Of a stretch of 64,000 nt of DNA, positions 24,848 through 61,994 are shown piece by piece. Below the pieces are notes generated by a model that saw nothing but the letters and a program-made list of their open reading frames with translations, ran no database searches and had not been told where the DNA came from. This stretch comes from Clostridia bacterium (GTDB taxonomy: Bacteria > Bacillota > Clostridia > Christensenellales > CAG-314): positions 62,001 through 126,000 of the forward strand of contig JAVVRZ010000002.1 in the NCBI GenBank assembly GCA_036654455.1, given 5' to 3'. The translations under genes were made by a program, and so were the position numbers. The first letter of the stretch is position 1; every line of letters starts with the position of its first letter.

Positions 24848-27800
24848 TTATTTAAATAGAGGGTCGTCCGGTATAGAAGACATCGGGTTAGAAATTTTAT
24901 AAATCAACGAATTTATAAAGCCCGGCATAGAGCGAGTCGACCAACTATTGTCGCCAAAAATTCTAGTAAGATTAGTCTTGGTTTGAGAGTCAAAGTTAAG
25001 GACATTCATATCTATTAAGGTTTGAATCTTAGCTTTTTGCACCCAGGTTGTCAATTTGCCAGATATTGTATTAGCCTCGGCAATTTTAGTGTCCGCCATA
25101 ACCTTAGTTAAGCCGTCGCAGTCGGCAAACGCATACTCTGCTCCGCTTTGTTCGGCTTGATACCATTTTTCGCCTGATTTCATAATAATATTACCTATTG
25201 AGTCTTTTTTGACCATAGCGTTAACGGTTACGGTGTAGTTAGCAATATTAGTTACTTCCTTTGCCCAAACGTGAGCGCAACCAACAATAGAATGAAGGTG
25301 ACCCGGCGTAGGATTTGCGCAAGTCCAAATTAGCGTATAATCGAGTACTTCGCCTAAATATAGTTGGTCTAATCTTGACCCGATATCTCCTACCGTAGCG
25401 TTTGCAAGAAGTTTAAGCATAGGTGTGCCTGTGCAATCGATTAAGTCGGCAAGTTTAAGCCCGTTGACTTTGTTTTTAATTGTGACTGCGTCCATAGTTC
25501 CTATTGTAAGACCTGCAAGTGCGCCGTCAATACCGCTCGCTAATACATCGTTGCTTGCGTTGTTGTCGTCAGTATATGTTTTGTACCAAACTCCGTTTGC
25601 CTTTGTAAGCCCTAACACTACACCAACTTCAATTTTGTCAATAGCGCCGTTTTTAATATCATTTATAGATTTATCGGCAAGCGCGCCAAGCACGCCCTTA
25701 GTTGAAGAAGTAATATCTAGTAGCTCGCCTAATTTAATGTAGTTAACTTTTGAGTCAACAATAGAGCTGTTGCCAAACTCTTTAATGGTTAAATCTGCAA
25801 GAGCGGAATAAATTCCCTTTGCCTTGACGTTTATAGTAGCGTCGGTATAACTTTCGTACCATATTCCGCCTACTTCGATAAGACCTAGCACAACGCCAAC
25901 TTTTACATTATCAACCGCAGTGCCATTTTTAAGTTCGGCTACCGTCTTATTTGCAAGCGAACCCATAATGCCCGTTTCTTTGCCTGTTAGGTTGAGTAAT
26001 TCGCCTAACTTGATACCGTTAATCGCTCTGTCCATTACGGTGTTGCCATTTGCGTCCTTAGTAGTGTCGCCAAGCTCCTTAACGGTTAGGCTTGCAAGCG
26101 CAGAATAAATTCCCTTTGCCTTAACGTTTGTAGTAGCGTCGGTATAACTTTCATACCAAATTCCGCCTACTTCGGTAAGACCTAGAACAACGCCAACTTT
26201 TACAGTGTCGATTGCAGTGCCATTTTTAAGTTCGGCTACTGTCTTATCTTTAAGAGAACCAAGAATACCTTTTTCGCCATCTTTGATATTGAGCAATTCG
26301 CCTAACTTAATGCCATTAATCGCTCGGTCGATTGCGGTGTTGCCATCTATGTCCTTAGTAATGTCGCCAAGCTCCTTAACAGTTAAGCTTGCAAGAGCGG
26401 AATAGAGTCCTTGCGCCTTAACATTTGTAGTAGCGTCGGTATAACTTTCGTACCATATTCCGCCTACTTCGGTAAGACCTAGAACAACGCCAACTTTTAC
26501 AGTGTCGATTGCAGTGCCATTTTTAAGTTCGGCTACTGTCTTATCTTTAAGAGAACCAAGAATACCTTTTTCGCCATCTTTGATATTGAGCAATTCGCCT
26601 AACTTAATCGTGTCAATCTTTGCGTTAAGTTTGGTTGAGTCTGCCAAATCTTTAATAGTCATATCGGCGAGAGCTTTATTTATACCGCTTGCTAAGACAT
26701 CGTTGCTTGCGTTGTTGTCATCGGTATATGTTTCGTACCAAACTCCGCCAACGTTGATAAGACCTAGCGTAACGCCGACCTTTAAATTATCTATGGCTGT
26801 GCCATTCTTTAAGTCAGCTATTGTTTTGTCGCCGAGTTCTTTCATAATGCCGGTTTCCGTTCCCTTAAACTCTAACAAATCTTTAATTTTTGCCGTATCT
26901 AGCTTGTCGTTAAATACTGCGCTATTAGATAATTCGCTAATCTTTAAGTCGGCAAGAGTCTTAAATATGCCTGTCGCTTCCTTATTTAAAGGGTCATTTT
27001 CGGCGACAAATGTTTCGTACCATATATTATTATGTTTTACTAGATTAAGTACTTCGCCAAGAAGAATATTATCGATTGCGCCATTTTTAAGGTCATTGAC
27101 TGTCTTATTCTTTAAAACTGCCATAATACCCGTCGCAGTATCGCTTAGACCAAGTAGAGAACCTAGTTTTACGTCGCCAACAATGCCCATAGCGTCAAAT
27201 TTACCGCCTGTAATATCTGTTAGCTTGACGTTAGCCATAGAAAGTTCAAGTCCTTCTACCGCTGTGCCGGAATTATCCCAAGCATACTTAGGGGTAATAG
27301 TTGGGTCTATATCTGTTTCGGCTTTATTTGTCTGTTCGCCCTTAGTATATTTCATAACTTCGCCAATATATAAGTCACCCAGTAACGAATTAAAGTCTAT
27401 CGACCCGCCCGAGATAAGTTTGCCTAGTTCGATGTCGGCAAGAGCGGTCATTAAAGCGTCTACTTTAACGCCCTTGTCTTGCCAAACAAGTTCTTCTATT
27501 GCTGGGTCGGGGTTAACGTCTACGTGGTCATATTTGAGTAATGCGCCAACATAAAGCCCGTCGAAAAGTCCGCCGAGTTCAAGTTTTGCAACGTTGCCTG
27601 TAATTTTAATTAAATCGGCAATCTTCTTATCTTTGACAATATTACCAAAACCCGTATCTTTAAGAAGTTCGTCAAGTTTAAGCTCGCCTAGGCTTTTTAG
27701 TCCGCCATTCTCGCTTGCAATTGCCATAAGAATATCTTCTCCGCCTAAGATAACGCCGGCAACCGAACCAATCGAACAGTTAGCAAGTAACCCAAGTACG

Positions 27801-45908: not shown

Positions 45909-47063
45909 CTATTCGTCGGTAGGCGGATTGTCGGGATTATCGGGGTTATCTGGATTATCGGGGTTATCGGTAGGATTATCTGGGTTGTCGGTAGGGTTGT
46001 CGGTTGGGTTATCGGGATTGTCGGTAGGGTTATCAGGGTTATCGGTAGGCTTGTCCTCAGTGCTAGTGTCTTCTTCGGGGTTTTCGTCTTGATTGCTCCC
46101 GTCCTTATCAAGTAAGTCTTCGGAAGCAATTTCAAACAAATCTTCTAATTTATCTTTATAATCTTCTTCTGTTTTTGACCCGTCAATTAATTCGGCTTGA
46201 ATTTTTTCCAGGTCTACAAGCTGTTCGTCAATTTTTGTAGCTAACTCGTCAAGCTTATCGGCAAGTTCTTCTTTATCAGTGGTGTCAAGTTCGGTTGTAT
46301 CAAAGTCAAGTTTGTATTTAAATACCGCTAAGGTTTCTTTAAGTTCATTTAAGGTAATTTTACCCTCTTTGCAACCTGTTACTTTGTTTGAAAGATTGGT
46401 TAATTCGTCAATCTTTGTTTTTAAGCCGTTTTTAATTTTTAGTTCAAAGTCTTTGATAAGTTGCGTTTGATATTCGTTTAATTTTTTCTCGTCTAGTTGG
46501 TCGAGCAACGTTTCTATTTCGTCCTCGCTTAAAGATAGAACGTCGGCGTTAGCGATATTTGCTTGTTGTAGCGCCGACATAACATCGGCAAGTATACCTG
46601 TATAGACGCTTTCTTGGGTTTTTTTGTCCTTGCTAACAACCCCTAACTTTAACTGTCCGTTATCTTTAAGATAGCCTAACTTCTTGGCTCGCTCGATTAC
46701 AATTTTTGTAGCTTCCTTAATATCCTTGCCCACGAGATTGTTGTTAAGTAGCAGTTTGACGCCGTCTTCGTTTAAGGCTTGTTGAGCCGTAACAATGTTA
46801 TCCTTATTTACTTCGAGCTGTACGCGAGGGTTGATAGACATTGTAACGCAATATGCTTGGCTAGTTACGCTTGGCAGGAATACGGTAAGCGACACAATCA
46901 AGAGTATTACCGCAAGGGCTGAGGCAAATGTCATTTTAAACACAAGCGGACGCTTACTCTTTTTTGCATTCTGCCAGTTGACGCTACTAAGAATATATTG
47001 CTTATCGACTTTAATTTTGCTGTCTAACTCTTGATTAATAGCGTGTTTATATTTATCTTTCAT
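45909..47063 (-). CDS. RsgI-like membrane anti-sigma factor
   Basis: This 384-aa single-pass protein has a cytoplasmic N-terminus (about 1-40) expected to bind the sigma factor and a membrane helix (about 43-63). Just outside follows the RsgI-type middle domain CVTMSINPRVQLEVNKDN...ALNEDGVKLL. A helical region comes next (about 150-320), then a Pro/Asp/Asn tail of repeated TDNPDNP (about 335-384). The start at 47063 has AAGGAGG just upstream and overlaps the sigma gene by 11 bp; the frame extends to 47156 but only inside the sigma gene. It probably holds the ECF sigma at the membrane until an envelope signal releases it. Confidence 0.82.
   Translation of the reverse strand: MKDKYKHAINQELDSKIKVDKQYILSSVNWQNAKKSKRPLVFKMTFASALAVILLIVSLTVFLPSVTSQAYCVTMSINPRVQLEVNKDNIVTAQQALNEDGVKLLLNNNLVGKDIKEATKIVIERAKKLGYLKDNGQLKLGVVSKDKKTQESVYTGILADVMSALQQANIANADVLSLSEDEIETLLDQLDEKKLNEYQTQLIKDFELKIKNGLKTKIDELTNLSNKVTGCKEGKITLNELKETLAVFKYKLDFDTTELDTTDKEELADKLDELATKIDEQLVDLEKIQAELIDGSKTEEDYKDKLEDLFEIASEDLLDKDGSNQDENPEEDTSTEDKPTDNPDNPTDNPDNPTDNPTDNPDNPTDNPDNPDNPDNPDNPPTDE
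45915..46060. repeat. Pro-Asp-Asn coding repeat in the RsgI-like gene
   Basis: Short imperfect repeats (TTATCGGGGTTATCTGG-like units) encode (T)DNPDNP about a dozen times. Such tracts readily change copy number. Confidence 0.75.
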
Positions 47064-47589
47064 CGTACACCTCCTTGTAATAGTGTTTAACTTTTTCGAT
47101 GGCTTTATTATATTGCCAGTAAATTGTGGCAAGAGGCTTACCCAGCATATTGGCAATTTCGGTTCTATTGTAACCTTGTATTACAGCAAGCTCGATTAAC
47201 TGCCATTCCTCAGCCGGCATCTTCTCCTTGCATAATAGTAGTAGAGGCGTGTCTATGCTATCAAATATAGTAGGAGCTTCGGCAGATAGAAATTCTTCAT
47301 TCTCGATGCTTGCGGTAAATCTACGTTGATTATATACGTTAATTGCTTTGTTGCGAGCAATCGTAAGTAGATATGCGTGAAAATTTTTATCGCAATCTAG
47401 GCTAATAAGGTTGTTGAGGAAAGTTATGTAAGTTTCTTGCATAACGTCGTTAGCTTCCTCTTGATTTTTAAGTACGCTAAAAGTAATGTAAAACACAGCA
47501 TTTTTCGTCAATTCAAAGAATTCGTCAAAATACTGTTGCTTACCTTTTTTTAGCTCCTTAACGCAACGGTTTAGTCTTATGTTGTCCAT
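47053..47589 (-). CDS. ECF-family RNA polymerase sigma factor
   Basis: This 178-aa sigma-70-like factor has region 2 (about 15-80, with EEANDVMQETYITFLNNL) and region 4 (about 115-170, AEEWQLIELAVIQGYNRTEIANMLGKPLATIYWQYNKAIEK) and no region 3, as in extracytoplasmic-function sigmas. The start at 47589 (MDNIRLNRC) gives the usual length; a TTG frame to 47640 would run through the candidate promoter. It overlaps the RsgI-like anti-sigma gene by 11 bp, so the two are coupled. The upstream element (47607-47640) is shared with the downstream lipoprotein gene and suggests autoregulation. Confidence 0.88.
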   Translation of the reverse strand: MDNIRLNRCVKELKKGKQQYFDEFFELTKNAVFYITFSVLKNQEEANDVMQETYITFLNNLISLDCDKNFHAYLLTIARNKAINVYNQRRFTASIENEEFLSAEAPTIFDSIDTPLLLLCKEKMPAEEWQLIELAVIQGYNRTEIANMLGKPLATIYWQYNKAIEKVKHYYKEVYDER

Positions 47590-47606
47590 ACTCTTTTCTA
47601 CTACCT

Positions 47607-47640
47607 TATATACAATTATACTAGCTCGAATTTCTAACAA
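47607..47640 (-). promoter_or_regulatory. Candidate autoregulated promoter of the ECF sigma gene
   Basis: Minus strand: TTGTTAGAAA (47640-47631), then at the same distance as in the lipoprotein promoter GTATAATTGTATATA. The 34-bp windows match at 23 positions without gaps. Confidence 0.6.
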
Positions 47641-48101: not shown

Positions 48102-49139
48102 ATGAAATTAATACATTGTTCGGATTTACATCTAGATTCGTCGCTAAACGCTTTGCCTAGCGAACTGGCAAAAAAACGCAGAATGGAGTTAATTACTACT
48201 TTTGTAAGGCTTACCGAGTACGCAAATGATAACGGAGTTAGCGTTATTATGCTTGCCGGCGATATTTTTGACACTAACTTTGCAACTTTTGCCACAAAAG
48301 AACGGTTTGCTTCGATAATCAAATCAAATGCAAACATTGACTTCTTGTGTCTTGAAGGCAATCACGACGAACAAAATTTCCTCTCCACTTTAAATTATCC
48401 CAACCTTAAACGCTTTAATTCGACTTGGACAAGTTATAGTTACGGCAACGTTGTCATTTGTGGCGCAAGCTGTGGCGAAATATCTTGCCTTGCTAGCTCT
48501 TTGTCGCTTAGCCCTACAAACCAAAATATCGTTCTTCTTCACGCTCAAATTGCAAGTCGTTCGCAAAATGACAATCTTAACCTTGTAGACTTTACAAACA
48601 AAAATATTGACTATCTCGCCTTAGGGCATTTGCACGCATTTAGACAAGACAAACTTGACAGGCGAGGCAAATATTGTTACTGCGGTTGTCTTGAAGGCAG
48701 AGGGTACGACGAGCTTGGGCAAAAAGGCTTTGTTCTATTAGACACTTGCGACAATATAAAGTCGACATTTATCCCCTTTGCATACAGGCAAGTCGAACAA
48801 ATCAGTCTTGACTTAACTTCGCTTAATTATGCGCAAATACTTGACTCGGCAAAAACTTTACTTAAAAATGTAAATCCTACCAGTATAGTTCGTTTGGTGT
48901 TAGAGGGTAGTTACAAAATAGACACTTATACGGGCATAAAAGAACTTGAAGAAATATATTCGCAAAAGTTCTTCTACTTCTGCGTAAAAGACGCTAGCAA
49001 ACCCGAAATTGATAAAAGTCAAGAAATATGTTTGAGCAATCAATTTATGTCTTATGTGGCGTCGTCTACGCTTACCGAGCAACAAAAAGGCAAGGTAATC
49101 GAGTACGGGCTTAAAGCGTTAAGGGGAGAAAACTTATGA
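48102..49139 (+). CDS. YhaO/SbcD-like metallophosphoesterase
   Basis: This 345-aa nuclease-family protein has the five metallophosphoesterase motifs: HCSDLHLDSSL (5-15), GDIFD (about 53), GNHDE (about 86), a histidine in LLHAQI and GHLHAF (about 175). This pattern is that of the SbcD/Mre11 and YhaO group, which process DNA ends with an SMC-like partner. The partner is the YhaN-like gene at 49291. AGGAG lies before the ATG. The gene's last 143 bp are part of a 155-bp tandem duplication, so the original 4-bp overlap with the partner has been pushed apart. Confidence 0.85.
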   Translation: MKLIHCSDLHLDSSLNALPSELAKKRRMELITTFVRLTEYANDNGVSVIMLAGDIFDTNFATFATKERFASIIKSNANIDFLCLEGNHDEQNFLSTLNYPNLKRFNSTWTSYSYGNVVICGASCGEISCLASSLSLSPTNQNIVLLHAQIASRSQNDNLNLVDFTNKNIDYLALGHLHAFRQDKLDRRGKYCYCGCLEGRGYDELGQKGFVLLDTCDNIKSTFIPFAYRQVEQISLDLTSLNYAQILDSAKTLLKNVNPTSIVRLVLEGSYKIDTYTGIKELEEIYSQKFFYFCVKDASKPEIDKSQEICLSNQFMSYVASSTLTEQQKGKVIEYGLKALRGENL

Positions 49140-49306
49140 GAATTATTTCTTGCAAACCCGAAATTGATAAAAGTCAAGAAATATGTTTGAGCAATCAATT
49201 TATGTCTTATGTGGCGTCGTCTACGCTTACCGAGCAACAAAAAGGCAAGGTAATCGAGTATGGGCTTAAAGTGTTAAGGGGAGAAAACTTATGAGAATTA
49301 TTTCTT
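48997..49306 (+). repeat. 155-bp tandem duplication across the YhaO/YhaN junction
   Basis: Copy 1 at 48997-49151 and copy 2 at 49152-49306 differ at only two positions, both C to T (near 49115/49270 and 49127/49282). Each copy carries the 3' end of the YhaO-like gene and the first codons of the YhaN-like gene. Confidence 0.95.
49136..49294 (+). pseudogene. 52-codon hybrid reading frame created by the duplication
   Basis: It starts at the old YhaN-type ATG (MRIISC) and then runs into the duplicated YhaO C-terminus (KPEIDKSQE...LRGENL), ending at the TGA that overlaps the current YhaN start by 4 bp. It retains the original ribosome site, so it may be translated and keep coupling intact, but it has no independent domain. 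Confidence 0.7.
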
Positions 49307-51270
49307 GTCATATAGATGGTTTTGGCAAATTAGTAAATCTAGATTACGAATTTGCCCCCACCCTAAACTCAATATGTCAACCTAACGGCTGGGGAAAAAC
49401 CACGCTTGCGGTATTTATTAAAGCTATGCTTTATGATATTCAGGACGTTAGAAAAGACTCTATTTGCGACAACGAATACGACAAATACAAGCCTTTCGCC
49501 GATTGCGTGTTTGGCGGAAGTTTAATTTTTAGTCAAAATGACAAGATATACCGCATTGAACGCACTTTTGGAAGGACAAAAGACAAAAAATCTTGCGTTG
49601 TATACGACCAAAAAACCAATATGACGACCACGGACTACGATAATACGCAAGAAATAGGCGTTCAAGTGTTGGGAGTAGATGTAAACACCTATATGCGTAG
49701 CTACTATTTGCCACAAAATATAGAACTAACGTCGAGTGACGAGAATAGTAGTTTAAACAGCTTGCTTGCCGGTCAAAGCGAGGAAAATTACAAAAAAGCG
49801 CTTGACATTCTTGACAAAAAAAGAATGTCTTACAAACTTAAAAAAGGGCGAGGCGGACTGATTTGTAAATTGGAGGATAAAATTAGCCAACTTCAACTGG
49901 ACGAAAACCAAGCTAGAAAGGCTCAAAATCAAGTCGAAGTTTTTGAAAAACAGCTAGACTTTACAAATCAACAAATTAAGGAACTTGAAACGCAAATAAT
50001 AACACTTAAACAAAAAATAGCTTTGTCCACAAAACAAAGCCAACAAAATATATATTTAGAGCATATTAAAACGTTAGAGAATAAGCTAGACGAACTTATA
50101 GAACAAACTAAGAGCCTTAAAGAGAGTCTGCCCTTAGATATACTTGACGAAAACAAAATTTCTCAACTTATGGATAAAAACACCGAGTTAATAGAACTGG
50201 CTCAAACTAAACTAAACTTAGACCTTCAACCTACGCAAACTAATCAAAAAACTTTGTCTGGTAAATCAAAGATTGCTTTTTATGCCCTTATCGCAATGTT
50301 TATAGCTTGTTTAGTTGGCGGTTGCGTAGCTTTCGTATACGATACTTTAATCGGCATAATTTTAATAGCCCTAGCTTTTGTATGTTCGGCTGTAAGTTTT
50401 GTCATATTCTATAACAATAAATTAAACCAAAATACAATGTACTCTAAGCAAACAAACGACGAGCAAACCTTAAAAAATAGACAAGCCGAGATTGAAGGCA
50501 AGATAGCTAATATTAACGAATACTTATCTAAATATTTTGGTAAAATTTGCTTAAATTACTCAAATGAAATTATTGCCCTGCAACAAAAGTTGTCTTTGCT
50601 AAGTCAAAACTGTAAACAAATTAACGAGCTTAAACAAGAAATTGCCGATTACAAAACCGAACACAATCTTGAAGGCAAACAATTATCCGTTCAAAATATA
50701 GAATTGCTTCAAAGACAGCTAGATTTAAGCATCGCAAAGATTAACGCCCTTACTCACGACCTTGCCACAGAAGAAAGTCAAATAAAAACGTACAAAAATT
50801 TGGCAGATAAACTTGTAGAAATTGTTGAGCAACAAGAATATTTGGGCGAAGAACTTAAAAAATGCGAAGAAGAATTTACCTTGATTGACTATACTTCTAC
50901 CTTTTTAAAAAAGGCAAAACAAGAACTTGCGTTAGAATATTTGCCAAAATTAAGACAAAACTTTAAACAACTAATCAACATTTTTACCGAGCTTAACTTT
51001 GACCTAGACATCAATTTAACCCCGTCTTTTACCTTGCTTGGTCAAACAAGAAAATATGATTTTTTGTCGCAAGGGTACAAAGATATTGTCAAGCTGTGTT
51101 CTAGGCTGGCTCTATGCGGGTGTCTTGACAACAAAAATAACTTCTTAATATTAGACGACCCCTTAGCTAATATGGACGACGACAAACTTGTAGAGGCTAA
51201 AAGACTGCTTGTCGAACTTTCGAAACAATATCAAATAATATATATCGTCTGTCACAGTAGTCGTAGCTAA
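49291..51270 (+). CDS. YhaN/SbcC-like ATPase with coiled coils and a central membrane hairpin
   Basis: This 659-aa SMC-like ATPase has Walker A PNGWGKTTLA (about 31-40), long coiled coils (about 190-310 and 390-560), a signature-like FLSQGYKDIVKLCSRLALCG (about 590) and Walker B LILDDPLANMDDD (about 625). Two adjacent hydrophobic helices (about 330-375) interrupt the coil, as in Firmicutes YhaN, and would tether it to the membrane. It partners the YhaO-like nuclease in DNA-end processing. The start lies in copy 2 of the 155-bp duplication with a GGGGAG site intact. Confidence 0.85.
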   Translation: MRIISCHIDGFGKLVNLDYEFAPTLNSICQPNGWGKTTLAVFIKAMLYDIQDVRKDSICDNEYDKYKPFADCVFGGSLIFSQNDKIYRIERTFGRTKDKKSCVVYDQKTNMTTTDYDNTQEIGVQVLGVDVNTYMRSYYLPQNIELTSSDENSSLNSLLAGQSEENYKKALDILDKKRMSYKLKKGRGGLICKLEDKISQLQLDENQARKAQNQVEVFEKQLDFTNQQIKELETQIITLKQKIALSTKQSQQNIYLEHIKTLENKLDELIEQTKSLKESLPLDILDENKISQLMDKNTELIELAQTKLNLDLQPTQTNQKTLSGKSKIAFYALIAMFIACLVGGCVAFVYDTLIGIILIALAFVCSAVSFVIFYNNKLNQNTMYSKQTNDEQTLKNRQAEIEGKIANINEYLSKYFGKICLNYSNEIIALQQKLSLLSQNCKQINELKQEIADYKTEHNLEGKQLSVQNIELLQRQLDLSIAKINALTHDLATEESQIKTYKNLADKLVEIVEQQEYLGEELKKCEEEFTLIDYTSTFLKKAKQELALEYLPKLRQNFKQLINIFTELNFDLDINLTPSFTLLGQTRKYDFLSQGYKDIVKLCSRLALCGCLDNKNNFLILDDPLANMDDDKLVEAKRLLVELSKQYQIIYIVCHSSRS

Positions 51271-61764: not shown

Positions 61765-61853
61765 TTGACAAAATTGACAAAATTGACTTATATAGCAACA
61801 AACGCTAGTGAAGCTTAAAAAAACAATCTGGTTTTTGATACTATAAACCTAAA

Positions 61854-61994
61854 AATTTGGACAAAATACAATAAAGATTGAGTAAAATTTAGCTCAATAA
61901 AATTTGGACAAAATACAATAAAGATTGAGTAAAATTTAGCTCAATAAAATTTGGACAAAATACAATAAAGATTGAGTAAAATTTAGCTCAATCT
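61854..61994 (+). repeat. Three tandem 47-bp units, each containing a terminator-like hairpin
   Basis: Units begin at 61854, 61901 and 61948 with AATTTGGACAAAATACAATA and are essentially identical apart from the last few bases of the third. Each holds ATTGAG...CTCAAT inverted arms. Confidence 0.9.

Follow-up and report, generated by a model that had tools for sequence, protein, structure and literature searches.

In the 64,000-nucleotide stretch of Clostridia DNA analysed here (the window), the assembled sequence contains the boundary between a nuclease-like and an ATPase-like gene twice in tandem. This raises the question of whether the locus records a genuine duplication or an assembly error and, if genuine, whether the short open reading frame (ORF) that bridges the two genes is of any consequence.

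The gene pair and its repeated boundary

The following features were annotated at the locus:

48102..49139, + strand: Mre11/SbcD-like (YhaO-like) metallophosphoesterase gene, intact; 345 aa; PF00149 4e-12, Mre11/SbcD models
48997..49151, + strand: repeat copy 1; YhaO-like gene end (46 full codons plus stop), then first 16 nt of a YhaN-like start
49121..49128, + strand: Shine-Dalgarno-like AAGGGGAG, upstream of the relay ORF; from sequence
49136..49294, + strand: hybrid relay ORF, 52 aa; MRIISC (YhaN-like start) plus 46 C-terminal residues of the YhaO-like protein
49152..49306, + strand: repeat copy 2; two C-to-T differences, 49261 synonymous and 49272 Ala to Val in the relay frame
49276..49283, + strand: Shine-Dalgarno-like AAGGGGAG, second copy, upstream of the YhaN-like gene; from sequence
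49291..51270, + strand: Rad50/SbcC-like (YhaN-like) ATPase gene, intact; 659 aa; PF13476 1e-9; Thermotoga Rad50 1e-5

The YhaO-like protein matches PDB profiles of Mre11/SbcD down to 5e-18, and its metallophosphoesterase motif residues (D8, H10, D54, N87, H88, H147, H176 and H178) are invariant in an 18-sequence alignment. Its best score against the curated SbcD/Mre11 models (53.8 bits) lies far below the cut-off of 500, and the protein is thus described as 'like', that is, as a relative of SbcD and Mre11 and not as either protein itself. No CxxC zinc hook, a trait of Rad50/SbcC, was identified in the 659 aa of the YhaN-like protein, and a search of the genome contigs with this protein as query returned no relative. 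'YhaO/YhaN-like' is a reasonable label for the pair. The mid-region of the YhaN-like protein (residues about 328-372) contains two strongly hydrophobic, membrane-span-like segments, which are also present in 23 of the 27 related loci checked; this segment pair suggests that the Mre11-Rad50-like complex could be membrane-anchored.

The tandem pair consists of copies 48997-49151 and 49152-49306 with a period of exactly 155 and an identity of 153/155 (98.7%), as originally predicted, and was also recovered by TRF (score 608) and by a separate repeat search. A 155-bp pair of this identity cannot have arisen by chance. Matching positions extend from 48997/49152 through 49152/49307 and are interrupted by two mismatches only, 49106 C / 49261 T and 49117 C / 49272 T, which agrees with the two C-to-T differences reported earlier. 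The homology at the joint is likewise as small as had been claimed, the run of matches ending after a single shared base (G); the only other likeness there is CTAG/CTTG, a 3/4 match. A possible bias of both C-to-T changes towards CG sites was considered and dropped, as 8 of the 24 C of the repeat lie in CG and two out of two would occur by chance with a probability of about 0.1.

Other repeats in the window include a tandem array in which a 297-bp unit recurs about 2.8 times (25768-26608; roughly 88-93% alike) and three perfect tandem copies of a 47-bp unit (61852-61992). On the - strand, 45909-47640 contains a Sigma-70-family factor gene and, after it, a second gene whose product combines an RsgI-like anti-sigma domain at its centre with a tail of NPD/TDNPDNP-type repeats.

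Geometry and translation signals of the relay ORF

The original prediction had also emphasized that both genes stay intact. Both are indeed whole, and this is uninformative, as it holds for any tandem duplication from gene 1 into gene 2: a duplication that begins in the first gene and ends in the second leaves both intact without any need for selection. The bridging frame follows from similar arithmetic. Gene 2 starts at an offset of 2 (modulo 3) from the reading frame of gene 1, and the period of 155 likewise leaves a remainder of 2, which puts the copied start in frame with the copied tail; an in-frame relay is expected for one duplication length in three. The 52-codon ORF at 49136-49294 lies between the two genes as described, and each overlap within the trio 48102-49139, 49136-49294 and 49291-51270 is an ATGA, the two ATGA overlaps at the relay ORF ends being copies of one another.

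Gene pairs with ATGA overlaps couple by termination-reinitiation, often with the help of a Shine-Dalgarno motif (PMC6728339), and translational coupling through the relay ORF is plausible. Since AAGGGGAG lies inside the duplicated segment, the YhaN-like gene still has an initiation signal of its own, and the relay may be dispensable for it. RNA folding around both start sites was no better than in shuffled sequences.

Origin of the repeat and possible role of the relay peptide

Among 61 genomes searched, the nuclease gene was matched in 41, and a second match to the nuclease C-terminus occurred only in the window's own genome. The junction is single-copy in all 28 related loci read, all from outside the genus, with no 15-mer repeated within 500 bp, in line with the expectation that relatives carry one copy. 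The extra copy is therefore derived here, which fits a gain in this genome and not losses elsewhere, and in the assembled sequence the two adjacent direct copies constitute a tandem duplication relative to the relatives. The duplication is likely to be recent. The 4-nt gene overlap is the same in 19 of the 28 related loci, where starts were taken from the longest frame and some of the other distances may reflect start choice. The neighbouring prolyl-tRNA synthetase was used as a query to reach the corresponding locus in close genomes; its best match had 64% identity (nearest named relatives uncultured Clostridia), and none of the loci reached carried the YhaO/YhaN-like pair. The viral contigs searched did not contain the exact junction sequence.

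We consider the duplication quite probably real. An assembly artefact, in which contig ends of two co-existing strains with a 155-bp overlap and two SNPs were joined end to end without being merged, would account for several features: the abrupt joint, whose 1 base of homology is at chance level, as a chimeric join would give; the assignment of each copy to its own haplotype, at a divergence (1.3%) typical of strains; and the nature of the assembly, which comprises 36 contigs and can be inferred to derive from a metagenome because the named genomes closest to it are metagenome bins. Literature on false duplication in metagenome bins yielded nothing useful. Direct repeats of 155 bp should furthermore be easily lost, and the two differences that the copies have nevertheless accumulated were counted against a genuine duplication. 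Nonetheless, this explanation appears unlikely, if well short of negligible. The two copies are not identical, which speaks for a real duplication, and the usual failure of short-read assembly is collapse, not expansion. No other clean two-copy tandem duplication of similar size was found in the 793 kb of genome scanned, and the sampled stretches of the genome contain no N letters, which argues that the assembly is not generally prone to such repeats. The longest stretch identical in both copies is 109 bp (48997-49105), so 150-base reads would be able to distinguish them. In addition, one of the differences affects Ala339, which is conserved in 25 of 28 relatives, kept in copy 1 (the tail of the real gene) and replaced by Val in copy 2, a change less expected of a strain polymorphism than of a redundant copy.

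A genuine duplication could in principle have been selected. In Mre11, a C-terminal helix-loop-helix binds Rad50. The 46 residues that the relay ORF takes over from the nuclease subunit make up its complete C-terminal element; the duplicated tail is alignable and partly conserved among relatives, and the 52-aa peptide is predicted from its single sequence to form a helical hairpin (H14-28 and H33-47; mean pLDDT 82.6). The full-length model of the YhaO-like protein (mean pLDDT 44) is too poor to judge this element, and the 52-aa peptide proved too insensitive a query for counting relatives across the family, missing even their own tails. Judging from the predicted hairpin, it is conceivable that a free copy of the nuclease C-terminus could compete for the docking site on the ATPase. 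That the relay ORF is a selected innovation, either because its peptide, by binding the Rad50-like partner, competes with or tunes the complex or because its translation usefully lowers ATPase synthesis, would be consistent with the completeness and partial conservation of the hairpin, with an ORF equipped with a start, a Shine-Dalgarno-like sequence and a stop of its own, and with the persistence of the repeat, two differences included, despite its expected instability. We nevertheless regard such selection as very improbable: the duplication is present in one genome only, the kept frame is a one-in-three outcome, and one of the two changes alters a conserved residue, which argues against constraint on the relay peptide. 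It is just as doubtful that a new small gene arose here by one-step duplication, encoding a free ATPase-binding helix-loop-helix translated in step between the subunits and able to occupy the docking site.

The explanation that we favour, and hold to be probable, is that a 155-bp tandem micro-duplication, genuine and specific to this lineage, formed with almost no homology. It might have arisen, for example, by end joining or by a backward template switch at a replication fork, and would have been tolerated because it spans the gene boundary. The sequence shows that gene 1 runs through copy 1 to its normal stop and that gene 2 starts from copy 2, where a Shine-Dalgarno-like sequence of its own precedes it. 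Ribosomes that finish gene 1 may reinitiate first on the 52-codon relay ORF and then on gene 2, the relay product probably being a by-product and copy 2 presumably drifting.

The locus thus probably represents an ordinary micro-duplication and not a new system, and, as far as any evidence shows, it is a coincidence that a DNA-end-processing locus was the one duplicated; the event says little about DNA-end processing itself. If real, it is a neat case of a micro-duplication that, by spanning a gene boundary, keeps both genes whole and creates in a single step a short ORF equipped with a ribosome-binding signal and a complete predicted protein-binding module. Should it be an artefact, its only value would be as a warning.

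Comparison with known systems

As in other Mre11-Rad50 / SbcD-SbcC (YhaO/YhaN-like) pairs, a metallophosphoesterase gene is followed by an overlapping Rad50-like ATPase gene. Unlike in these pairs, 155 bp are inserted between the two genes, and the ATPase combines two hydrophobic segments with the lack of a CxxC hook. The repeat resembles small bacterial tandem duplications attributed to template switching or illegitimate recombination in its head-to-tail direct copy, abrupt joint and limited homology. In contrast, verified spontaneous duplications in Salmonella had at least 11 bp of junction homology, compared with 1 bp here, and tested candidates with 7 and 9 bp failed (PMC3411829). The arrangement shares with ATGA termination-reinitiation coupling (PMC6728339) the 4-nt overlap and a Shine-Dalgarno-like sequence within the upstream gene, but differs in having two successive overlaps bridged by a 52-codon ORF.
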